NCBI RefSeq assembly: GCF_020037015.1
Contig: NZ_JAIQDE010000012.1
Coordinates: forward strand, 1 to 64,000
Direction: 5' to 3'
DNA length: 64,000 bases
Origin: Corallococcus sp. AS-1-6
GTDB lineage: Bacteria; Myxococcota; Myxococcia; Myxococcales; Myxococcaceae
In this document: positions 29,401-32,415 of the stretch, in pieces
Layout: every line of letters begins with the position of its first letter
Numbering within the stretch: the first letter of the stretch is position 1
The notes under the pieces: model-generated
What the model saw: the letters and a program-made list of their open reading frames with translations, nothing else
The model's database searches: none
Told to the model about the DNA's origin: nothing
Program-made: the position numbers and the translations under genes

Positions 29401-30072
29401 TCAGCCGAAGAAGAAGGTGAGGCCAAGCTTTCCGGACGGCTGGAGTTTGCGCATCATCCACGACTGCGTCTCCGCGGGAGACAGCGAGTCGCGGAAGGGC
29501 TCGTCCAGCTTCTTGAGGCTGGGGACGTCCATCTCCATGAAGCTCATGCCGCCGCGCACGAAGAAGCTGAGGCGCCGGGTGGCGTTGAACTCCAGGCCCA
29601 GGTGCGTGCTGATGTACGTGTAACCCACGCGCTCCATGGAGGAGGTGGGCAACTGCGTGCGGTCCGCGAGCCTCCGGTTCAGCGTCTTCGTGCTCGCGGC
29701 CTGCGCGTGTCCGAACTCCCAGGAGAACGAGGGAGAGACCTTGCTCTTCAGCGGGAGGAGCGTGAGTCCCGCGCGCAAGGCGCCTCGCAGGCCGTTGTGC
29801 GCGCCGCCGAGGTGGATTCGCAGGTGCGGCGAGGGCCGGAGGACGCCGGAGAGTCCCGCGCCCTCGGGCATGCCCGCGTCGAGCATGAGGCCGAAGGGCG
29901 CCAGCCGCTCCGGATCATTCATGCGGCGCCGGCCTTCGCCCTGCTGGGCCTGGACCTGCGGCAACTGCGCCTGCGGTGCTGACTGGGCCATGGCCGTGTG
30001 AGTCGCCAGGACCATGACCGCCGCGGTGACGATGGACACCGCTCCCATGAGGCTTCTCCCCGTTCCAGACAT
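29401..30072 (-). CDS. Exported hypothetical protein, likely outer-membrane
   Basis: 223 residues from ATG 30072; an ATG at 30048 would remove eight residues and leave a poorer signal. The N-terminus is a signal peptide ending in TAMAQ. The mature chain has beta-strand patterns (HLRIHLGGAHNGLRGALRAGLTLLPL, YTYISTHLGLEFNATRRLSFFVRGGMSF) and ends LGLTFFFG, as barrel proteins do. No family was recognised. Its upstream region is the long C-rich repeat spacer shared with the divergent gene at 31327. Confidence 0.7.
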   Translation of the reverse strand: MSGTGRSLMGAVSIVTAAVMVLATHTAMAQSAPQAQLPQVQAQQGEGRRRMNDPERLAPFGLMLDAGMPEGAGLSGVLRPSPHLRIHLGGAHNGLRGALRAGLTLLPLKSKVSPSFSWEFGHAQAASTKTLNRRLADRTQLPTSSMERVGYTYISTHLGLEFNATRRLSFFVRGGMSFMEMDVPSLKKLDEPFRDSLSPAETQSWMMRKLQPSGKLGLTFFFG

Positions 30073-30428
30073 CGCGGCCACGCGCGATGAGATTTGCGAG
30101 GTACGCCGGATCCCGGAATCACTCGCGCTCCGAGACCCGGCTGCGTGTTGCTCCCCCCGACCCGCCACTCCACTCCCGCCACTGCCACACGCCCGGTGCT
30201 GACTGTCGCGTCGCCTCGATGCCGCCGCCGGCTGGATCGCGAAGCTCTCGCACCGCCACGTCTTGATTCACGGCCCTTCACGTCTCCCGTCCGGCGACCA
30301 CGGCCGCCTTTGCCGGACTCCCCCAAACTGCGCACTGCTCCGTCCCGCCGCCCAGCCCCGTCCCGCGACCTGCTTGCTGCCCTGCTCGACCGCGCAGCCT
30401 GCTGCCCCCCGGTGCCGCGCGGTGTGAG
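30073..30428. other. Gene-free left part of the divergent spacer
   Basis: About 356 bases between the exported protein and the repeat block. The plus strand becomes steadily C-rich toward the right, with short CCCGCC-like words that foreshadow the repeats. I see no convincing gene, terminator or promoter; short frames lack coding character. Confidence 0.5.
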
Positions 30429-31075
30429 GTGATGCGCACTGCCCTGATCCACCGTGCTGCGTGCTGCCCCGTTCCACCGTGCTGCGTGCTGCGTGCTGCG
30501 TGCTGCGTGCTGCGTCCCCCTCCACCGTCCCGCCCGTGCTGCCCCGTCCCGCCCTACCCCGTCCTGCGTGCTGCCCCGTCCCGCCCGTCCTGCCCCGTCC
30601 TGCGTGCTGCCCCAACCCGCCCGACCCCGTACCGCCTTTGCGCCCCCGTCCTGCGTGCTGCCCCGACCCGCCCGACCCCGTCCTGCCTCTGCTGCCCCGT
30701 CCCGCCCGTCCTGCCTCTGCTGCCCCGTCCCGCCCGTCCTGCCCCGGTCTGCCTTTGCTGCCCCAACCCGCCCTACCCCGTCCTGCGTGCTGCCCCGTCC
30801 TGCCTTTGCTGCCCCAACCCGCCCTGCCCCGTCCCGCCTTTGCTGCCCCGACCCGCCCTGCCCCGTCCTGCCTTTGCTGCCCCGTGCTGCCCCGTCCCGC
30901 CCTGCCTTTGCTGCCCCGTGCTGCCCCGACCCGCCCTGCCCCGTCCTGCCTTTGCTGCCCCGTGCTGCCCCGACCCGCCCTGCCCCGTCCCGCCTTTGCT
31001 GCCCCGACCCGCCCTACCCCGTCCTGCGTGCTGCCCCGTCCCGCCTTTGCTGCCCCGTCCCGCCCTGTTCCCCTT
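30429..31075. repeat. C-rich degenerate tandem repeat block with nine quadruplex-type motifs
   Basis: The block is built from short words (CTGCCCCGTC, CCCGCC, CTGCGTG, CTGCCTTTG) joined into units of about 34 and 44 bases. Copies at 30911-30954 and 30955-30998 differ at one base. Nine sites match CCCC-NN-CCC-G-CCC-NN-CCCC (starting at 30542, 30610, 30661, 30761, 30812, 30846, 30924, 30968 and 31002). On the minus strand each is a four-run G-quadruplex motif with loops of 2, 1 and 2. I count 17 A in 30541-31020. Frames stay open only because A is nearly absent; unit lengths are not multiples of three, so this is non-coding. Confidence 0.9.
30479..30513 (+). repeat. Perfect heptamer array (GTGCTGC)5
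   Basis: Five perfect head-to-tail copies of GTGCTGC stand at the left edge of the repeat block; two more copies lie at 30454-30467. Simple seven-base repeats of this kind are prone to slippage. Confidence 0.9.
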
Positions 31076-31326
31076 GAAGCAGTACGGCTTCCCCCCCACC
31101 GACTCCGTCCCCCCCGCCGTGCTGCCCGTTGCTGATGCCGGGGTGCCTAAGCATTCGCCGTGCCGACGCTTCTTCGCGGGATATTCCCTTTTGATATCGG
31201 GGACTTGAGCCATCCCGGCCCACGGGACGACCCGGACTGTGGGCCCTGAGCCGGAAAAAACTCCTGACCCTCCGGGGCCCCGGCCTAACGTGTGACAGCC
31301 TTGTTGACGGGATGATGGAGGAACCC

Positions 31327-32415
31327 GTGCGCCTTCCGGTCGCCGCCGCACTGCTCAGCCTGGTCGCCTGCTCCGAATCGACCGAAGGCACCACCCCGAA
31401 GCTCGAGGGCCTCATCAATCCGAGGCAGCGGCTCATCACCCCCGCGCGCGTCTGCAACGCCGGTGGCGGCCCGTCGGGATGGCGCCTGGAGCTCATCGGC
31501 GACCGCTTCACCCCCGTGCCTCGCGACGCGCTCACCGACTCGCCGTCCGTGGAGCTTCCCACGGTCTCCCTGAGCGGCCCCGCCGACTACACGCTCCCCG
31601 CGGACCACCTCTTCTTCGCGCGCACCGAGCTCATGCGGATGGACCTGCCCACCCGCGACAGCACGCCGTCGAACACGCTCCCGCCCGGCGCCTATACCGT
31701 CTCCGTGACGAACCCCCTCGGCGGCACCGCCGAGCTCGAGGACGCCCTGCGCGTCGTGCCACCGCCCGTCATCACGACCCTCACCGCGCCCGAGGGCTTC
31801 CGCTACAACGCCGCCAGCCCCCTCGTCATCGAAGGCAGCGGCTTCCGCGCGGACGCGCTGCCGCTCATCGTCCTCCAGCGCCAGGGCGAAGAGGACCAGC
31901 CCCTCTTCACCGTCACCGTCGTCTCCGACACGCGCATCGAAACCGAGGTGCCCCCCGCGACGCCGGAGGGCACCTACGCGCTCACCCTCACCAACCCCGA
32001 GGGCTGCTCCGTCACGCGTCCCCAGGCGCTCACCATCACCTATCCGCGGCTGGGCAACCTCTCCGTGTCGCCCGCGAGCGGCCCCGCAAACAGCGACACA
32101 GTCATCACCGTCACCAACACCGCGTCCGGCACCGCGAACCGCTTCACGCCCGGCACCCACGAGGTGTACCTCGTCGCTCCCGTGAAGACGGACCCCGGCC
32201 AGACGGTGAACATCCCGCTGTACGACGTGACGTACGTCTCCCAGGCGCAGCTCCGCGCCACCGTACCCAACTGCTCCGGCTTCGACTCGCGGCCCGTCAC
32301 GGACCCCGCGTGTCCCGGCGGCATCGTGCCCGGCACCTACGGGCTCATCGTCGCGGACCCCAGCGGCGCCTTCGGAACCCTCCCCGCGTCCTCCGGCTTC
32401 ACCGTCACCCCATGA
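31327..32415 (+). CDS. IPT/TIG-like domain lipoprotein
   Basis: 362 residues from GTG 31327. This start is preferred over ATG 31312 because a perfect GGAGG sits five bases before it and the signal then reads VRLPVAAALLSLVAC, with a lipobox Cys near residue 15. The mature chain holds two or three immunoglobulin-like TIG units: PPGAYTVSVTNPLGGTAELEDALRV, VIEGSGFRADALPLIVLQ with PPATPEGTYALTLTNPEG, and LSVSPASGPANSDTVITVTN. TIG domains are adhesive or structural surface modules. The next gene starts inside its stop (ATGA), so the two are coupled. Confidence 0.8.
   Translation: MRLPVAAALLSLVACSESTEGTTPKLEGLINPRQRLITPARVCNAGGGPSGWRLELIGDRFTPVPRDALTDSPSVELPTVSLSGPADYTLPADHLFFARTELMRMDLPTRDSTPSNTLPPGAYTVSVTNPLGGTAELEDALRVVPPPVITTLTAPEGFRYNAASPLVIEGSGFRADALPLIVLQRQGEEDQPLFTVTVVSDTRIETEVPPATPEGTYALTLTNPEGCSVTRPQALTITYPRLGNLSVSPASGPANSDTVITVTNTASGTANRFTPGTHEVYLVAPVKTDPGQTVNIPLYDVTYVSQAQLRATVPNCSGFDSRPVTDPACPGGIVPGTYGLIVADPSGAFGTLPASSGFTVTP

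Follow-up and report, generated by a model that had tools for sequence, protein, structure and literature searches.

A G-rich tandem array in Corallococcus looks less like a promoter element than part of a predicted RNA that resembles a so far undescribed family in several myxobacterial groups

The 64-kb stretch of Corallococcus sp. AS-1-6 DNA analyzed in this study (the window) carries a degenerate, G-rich tandem array between two divergent genes (Table 1). A sequence-only reading of this DNA had noted nine G-quadruplex (G4)-type sites in the array and proposed that they form a promoter-spacer element shared by both genes. A motif search recovered nine exact CCCCNNCCCGCCCNNCCCC sites, all on the plus strand, and confirmed their positions, their two-base loops, their single orientation, and the placement of the block between divergent genes. 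The array looks less like a promoter element than like part of an RNA, and this RNA resembles a so far undescribed family found in several myxobacterial groups. We consider it rather probable that the array is the repeat domain in the middle of a long structured RNA that is transcribed from a sigma-54 promoter, belongs to this family as a diverged member, and works as a scaffold or sponge.

Table 1. Features of the array locus, in window coordinates
Feature	Position	Strand	Details
Left gene, 215 amino acids	29401..30048	-	signal-peptide-like start and outer-membrane-protein-like end, by inspection
Candidate 3′ domain of the RNA family, degenerate and weakly matching	30100..30181	-	covariance models R1 and R2
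Terminal hairpin GCCGGGUCUCGGAGC...UUCCGGGAUCCGGC	30105..30141	-	just ahead of the left gene
Degenerate G-rich tandem array (C-rich on the plus strand), containing all nine sites	30429..31065	-	leftward transcription predicted
Nine GGGG-NN-GGG-C-GGG-NN-GGGG sites	30542..31020	-	plus-strand starts 30542, 30610, 30661, 30761, 30812, 30846, 30924, 30968, 31002
Predicted sigma-54-type promoter element GTCGGCACGGCGAATGCTT	31149..31167	-	GG 31164-31163, GC 31152-31151; conservation and pattern match
Right divergent gene, 367 amino acids, IPT/TIG-type repeat	31312..32415	+	NCBIfam NF058597 above cut-off, Pfam TIG below cut-off; neighbor only

At the right edge of the array lies a promoter-like element that points left, with a predicted RNA start near 31139. 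Its GG/GC core, GGCACGGCGAATGC at 31164-31151 of the minus strand, has the two dinucleotides ten bases apart, as expected of a sigma-54 promoter, and the element is conserved within Corallococcus and beyond. The sigma-54 consensus is TGGCACG-N4-TTGC, also given as TGGCAC-N5-TTGC, and promoters of this type require RpoN together with an enhancer-binding protein; it is from this consensus that the sigma-54 identity of the element is predicted. The pattern GGCA[CT][GA]N5TGC[TAC] matched once in the window, at 31149-31167. Match numbers were rejected as proof of this identity. The strict form YGGCACGNNNNWTGCW had four matches in the genome compared to three for the reversed control, and the consensus with one mismatch was rarer in the window (eight matches, the element among them) than expected by chance (27.5). 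Since these counts are uninformative, the argument is that two of the four strict matches abut the two arrays of the genome, the second of which is described below. A relaxed sigma-54 pattern with an initial T (seven matches versus one in the control) was used to pick control leaders, and after eight other sigma-54-like sites in this genome, the next 400 nucleotides (nt) contain 0 or 1 sense-strand G4 matches.

From this promoter, an RNA of about 1.04 kb and 51% G would be read leftward on the minus strand, from about 31139 to 30100; it would bear a chain of quadruplex-type sites and terminate in the hairpin. We infer both the transcription of this stretch and the folding of its G-runs into quadruplexes. 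With the nearest conserved promoter-like element upstream of it, the array is predicted to fall within the transcript, which speaks against a promoter-spacer element. The array also keeps company with the left gene: in the group labeled g30 (L061, L062), the promoter element, the C-rich array, and the left gene occur together, and the right gene found no match in the stretch examined. The strict motif was also not found in the locus-1 leaders of group g38. That a DNA quadruplex in the array tunes both divergent promoters, as the sequence-only reading held, is quite improbable given this arrangement and the different surroundings in which such arrays stand in other genera, even with a high quadruplex signal on the minus strand and, within the nine sites, runs with few substitutions and loops with many. 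The signal itself was as that reading would predict, with the strongest long minus-strand G4Hunter signal of the window at the array: among 647-nt stretches, 30429-31075 scored 1.35, the best stretch 1.41, and the next separate stretch 0.56. Of the 588 minus-strand 25-nt windows scoring at least 1.5 in the 64 kb, 243 fall inside the array; the top single 25-nt window lies outside it (2.6 versus 2.2).

The evidence for an RNA family comes largely from other genera. Groups g26 and g8 also have this promoter element with a G-rich array after it, but no homolog of the left gene follows (g38 is presumably Myxococcus, and we take g8 and g26 to be Archangium- or Cystobacter-like; these names are unconfirmed and not relied on). 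The copies share a domain downstream of the array that consists of CGGCTC, G-runs, GAGCCGG, and then a hairpin. Two covariance models of this 3′ domain were built from other genera, R1 from nine copies and R2 as a rebuilt model. In genome searches with stricter filters, in which 49 or 33 candidates were scored per genome and weak members can be missed, R1 matched 40 of 96 genomes of the bacterial family at E ≤ 0.1 (6 of 26 genera), and R2, at E ≤ 0.01, matched 40 of the 145 genomes searched from the order, every one within this family and together from six genera. The R1 search gave 52 matches, and 36 of those places are in an alignment of 37 copies. This alignment has 35 distinct rows; it keeps both L062 and L178, which are one place, and leaves out L061, which is the same place as L183. 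Antisense chance rows in the first 40-row alignment, L186 and L189 (1477-1549, plus strand), were removed by a stricter threshold.

The hairpin covaries outside Corallococcus. In the 37 aligned copies, 95.6% of the cells pair, compared to 31 to 50% with slid partners, and changes on both sides affect 21 cells, compared to 4.7 in shuffles. Covariation within Corallococcus was not used, as the alignment contains one chance row (L010:3107-3171). Five genomes (G042, G059, G060, G074, and G080) have two or three RNA-model matches each, at different places. A search of Rfam gave no match at the gathering score in the window and none at E ≤ 1 in six relative loci, and no published RNA was recognized as this one in open-license PubMed Central text.

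The layout of the copies was compared over 42 rows, i.e., the 37 family copies (with L062 and L178 as one place) and five Corallococcus loci. Exactly one sigma-54 match lies upstream in 30 of the 42 rows, 162 to 1048 nt from the 3′ domain; the other 12 have only 78 to 373 nt of upstream sequence, at contig ends, and the opposite strand had no match in 45,199 nt. Every row has more G than C on its sense strand and no G4 match on the opposite strand, and the stretch between element and domain is 43 to 61% G and 14 to 29% C. These counts bear on the suggestion that the C-rich strand is the one that matters, as a Rho-utilization site or as an antisense RNA toward the right gene. The plus strand over the array is C-rich and A-poor, as this suggestion would have it, but in 42 of 42 rows the sense strand, as set by the sigma-54 element or the 3′ domain, is the G-rich one, and we regard the suggestion as very improbable. 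A scan of 29900-31400 on both strands for sigma-70-type promoters, which leaves other promoter types uncovered, found no promoter; this is a weak point, as none is expected by chance either.

Words within the arrays are shared as well. In 13 arrays from five genera, picked by the authors, the G4 counts were above the dinucleotide-shuffle mean and were reached by 0 to 10 of 300 shuffles. The word CGGGGCAG occurs in 12 of the 13 arrays and in all five genera, and GCGGTACGGG in 11 of them and in four genera. In L058 and L059 (the g38 locus-1 leader), another recurring self-complementary word, of the CCGCGCTCCGCCCCCACGAAGCGCGGCGGG type, replaces the array. At the 5′ end of the predicted RNA, a stem around GGTCGACAGGGGTCGAC after the promoter element is common to L144, L145, L146, L165, L168, and L042 and was not seen in L147; the search for it was confined to these loci.

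By sequence criteria (four G-runs of at least three and short loops), the window's array would be able to form G-quadruplexes. Dinucleotide-shuffled arrays had a mean of 0.22 sites and a maximum of six, and none of 1000 shuffles reached nine; a comparable excess over this null is expected for any tandem array of such a unit, and with the tandem arrangement the nine sites are not nine independent events. The wider pattern CCCCNNCCCNCCCNNCCCC has 19 matches in the 9.5-Mb genome, 10 of them beyond the nine sites, and its reversed control is uninformative because the palindromic pattern is identical when reversed. The C-runs, described earlier as invariant, are so in the nine sites, which the motif itself selects, and not in the array as a whole: only 9 of its 25 units beginning with TGCCCC match the motif, and five run columns vary strongly, with C at columns 9, 13, 16, 18, and 19 in 17, 16, 14, 13, and 14 of the 25 units. 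The one-base loop (G on the plus strand) is identical across all nine sites. A perfect CGTGCTG repeat of 5.4 copies (30478-30515) lies at the left end of the array. A coding array was considered and rejected, as five of the eight unit spacings are not multiples of three. Long open frames do run over the array in all three plus-strand frames; these were attributed to the C-rich strand, which is poor in A and hence in stop codons.

A serious rival, although on balance an unlikely one, is that the RNA and its promoter are real and the array is a neutral minisatellite, growing and shrinking through slippage and recombination in an untranslated region, with quadruplex potential as a by-product of its G-rich start. 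Three observations fit it. First, the relatives that are sequenced through the locus have the array between the same genes and in the same orientation, and unit number and order differ between species, with 5 to 12 strict sites in five complete leaders. Second, the nine sites are spaced irregularly (68, 51, 100, 51, 34, 78, 44, and 34). Third, a second, unlinked array (L034:3375-3595, around G000:C65:155393-155588) lies in the leader of a gene for a conserved 78-residue protein, which has no Pfam match above cut-off and no NCBIfam match. The sigma-54 pattern stands upstream of this gene in 28 of 29 loci, the exception having only 97 nt upstream. Outside Corallococcus, the element is 42 to 90 nt from the start codon in 24 of 24 loci, with no G4 match in 23 and one in L107; in Corallococcus, the leader is 271 to 400 nt, with five to nine G4 matches in four of five loci, the fifth being the cut-off locus with 97 nt. 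Judged from these leaders, the locus-2 array is a Corallococcus-only expansion between the predicted promoter element and the start codon. The minisatellite view is countered by arrays on the same strand and in the same place in 42 of 42 rows and by words common to five genera, both of which common descent alone could explain, and by the G-runs that are kept while loops change in the 3′ domain, a finding that bears on the 3′ domain rather than on the array.

We also considered whether the two arrays of a genome undergo ongoing gene conversion; this is not supported, as the sharing of 14-mers within a genome (0.07-0.24) is no higher than between genomes. Locus-2 arrays share 0.47 to 0.83 across species and 0.07 to 0.27 with locus-1 arrays; some of the stretches compared include flanks, which inflates the locus-2 figures.

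The suggestion that the runs matter and the loops do not was followed into relatives. In an alignment of the nine-site array with four other Corallococcus species, with gapped positions excluded, the two-base loops of the nine sites differ at 40 of 120 positions and their runs at 9 of 430, a comparison that is biased as the aligner slides like onto like within the repeat. In the same alignment, differences were counted at 24 of 358 positions in C-runs outside the sites, 1 of 30 in the one-base loop, and 109 of 921 in the remainder of the array. A better test comes from the stem-closed segment of the 3′ domain, because it is not repeated. At least four G-runs of at least three are found in 16 of 29 distinct segments, where shuffling the same letters predicts 2.56, and at least three such runs in 26 of 29, where it predicts 13.86; the loops between them vary in length and sequence (for example, TAT, CGTGA, and AGTAA). 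The suggestion is thus borne out in part: run changes are few, loop changes are many, and G-runs are kept in the 3′ domain, but the runs are not invariant across the array. It gains support as a prediction at the RNA level, and in the non-repeated 3′ domain instead of the array.

Whether the RNA would act only on the gene beside it can be judged from its neighbors in other genera. A homolog of the left gene lies downstream on the same strand in 7 of the 37 rows (six places), and none lies within 1.2 kb in the other 30. In L193 and L190, which were inspected closely, the stop codon of a convergent open frame lies 9 and 15 bases beyond the domain, the frame in L193 being a glutaminase gene; because the convergent frame ends so soon past the domain, an RNA gene of its own is likely at both places. 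A leader that acts solely in cis, in which array and hairpin would regulate how the outer-membrane-protein-like gene is translated or its transcript elongated and would do nothing in trans, is improbable in view of these 30 rows and of the frames immediately after the domain in L190 and L193. It would accord with the seven rows that do have the gene and with the window, where the left gene starts about 55 nt beyond the hairpin. The stretch 30100-30148, which includes this hairpin, folds at -26.2 kcal/mol with a z of -3.46.

We infer that the window holds a diverged member of the family, an assignment favored by the position of the 3′-domain match, the left gene shared with g30, and the strong hairpin. 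Eight of ten Corallococcus loci match the 3′ domain at the same spot, about 50 nt ahead of the left gene, with 14.6 to 31.9 bits, and in the other two, L018 and L044, a related but altered sequence can be recognized by eye at this position. The window and four other Corallococcus loci have the sigma-54 element and a G-rich sense stretch upstream of the 3′-domain position, and g30 has a strong 3′-domain match with the same left gene adjoining.

Several observations weigh against the favored reading of the array as part of such a family RNA. First, the window's own 3′ domain is a weak match, with 17.9 bits and E 0.37 for R1 and 15.8 bits and E 0.31 for R2 (E 0.065 to 0.37 depending on the search space), and chance matches in the same window reach 14.0 and 12.7 bits, close to 17.9. 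The window lacks the G-tract-closing stem CGGCUC/GAGCCG, and the full stem is absent from the model alignment; L018 and L044 have no match at E ≤ 5, and none of 16 Corallococcus genomes has one at E ≤ 0.01 genome-wide (R2, strict filters, 33 candidates scored per genome). The hairpin lacks a U-tract and does not fit the consensus of an intrinsic terminator, and a search for terminator-like sites found none there. Second, the covariation is not decisive by two other counts, namely pairs with a change on both sides (4 versus 2.3, reached in 22 of 500 shuffles) and pair types (16 versus 15.1, 186 of 500 shuffles), and as the copies are related, shuffles do not gauge independent events. Relatedness applies equally to the G-runs of the 3′ domain, where 13 of the 29 stem-closed segments lack four such runs. 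Third, the word GGGCGGGTCG, which is near the core motif noted earlier, is common only in g1 (Corallococcus) and g26; neither g30 array contains it, and it is almost missing from g38, where some copies have only one to three G4 matches. Finally, the array appears to be dispensable at locus 2 in other genera, because all 24 loci there have the short leader of 42 to 90 nt with 0 or 1 G4 match.

The neighbors of the array in the window are the left gene, an alpha/beta hydrolase gene, and the IPT/TIG gene. The left gene product has no Pfam or NCBIfam match. Named Corallococcus records have the same right-hand gene at 74 to 86% identity; in the window, this gene is followed by a beta-barrel outer membrane protein gene (PF13505, 32418-33017), and the pair recurs at other Corallococcus loci. 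The five named draft records all stop short of the right gene by about 190 to 215 nt, at the array or immediately to its right. Of 20 stretches examined, four are only 61 to 176 nt long owing to a contig end. Draft contigs end at or beside arrays in L077-L081 and in L152, L153, L155, and L162. The array loci seem hard to assemble, and arrays are breakpoints in many draft assemblies of these genomes, which should be borne in mind.

What the computation shows is the anatomy of these loci: their layout and strand, a conserved promoter-like element, an excess of G-runs, and, outside Corallococcus, a covarying hairpin. The mechanism that we favor would start with an enhancer-binding activator, which would switch on sigma-54 transcription of the RNA. 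The plan of the family would comprise a sigma-54 promoter, a G-rich array of variable length, the stem (CGGCUC/GAGCCG) closing G-tracts, and the hairpin. The RNA seems to be a gene of its own in the many copies that have no left-gene homolog behind them; in Corallococcus, g30, and g29, it would lie directly ahead of the outer-membrane-protein-like gene as a 5′ leader. With many like units, whether quadruplexes or shared words such as CGGGGCAG, it would most likely serve an RNA-binding protein as a scaffold or sponge, and copies joined to the gene may also tune its translation or the read-through at the terminal hairpin. Tentatively, these RNAs could make up a sigma-54-induced, array-type class of bacterial RNA, in which serial quadruplexes capped by stem-set G-tracts act as a multivalent protein scaffold that in Corallococcus is joined to an outer-membrane-protein-like gene; in this full form, the proposal is possible but doubtful.

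Compared to known systems, the predicted RNA shows both likenesses and differences. RNAs of the CsrB/RsmZ type are sponges that repeat GGA motifs for CsrA/RsmA. The RNA of the window would resemble them in having repeated (predicted) binding units in one regulated RNA; the GGA motifs are the point of difference. Bacterial quadruplex function has been argued mostly from single sites, and to our knowledge the described bacterial RNA quadruplexes are single sites and not rows within a conserved RNA gene. Bacterial RNA quadruplexes have been mapped by rG4-seq (PMC6974567); they are G-tract RNAs expected to fold as the window RNA would. Pxr of Myxococcus, a small RNA for which two or three stem-loops are predicted, is flanked by nla19 and a predicted NADH dehydrogenase gene and has paralogs in Cystobacter, according to PMC5568312. 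In contrast to Pxr as described there, the window RNA has other neighbors and a G-rich array of several hundred nt. That it is Pxr was ruled out on its neighbors, which are those named above instead of nla19 and the NADH dehydrogenase gene.

If the favored reading is true, it would add a long structured RNA to a bacterial group in which, according to PMC5568312, no Hfq homolog was detected. It would also provide a conserved RNA gene family with serial sites and a defined, inducible type of promoter, in which quadruplex function would be directly testable.
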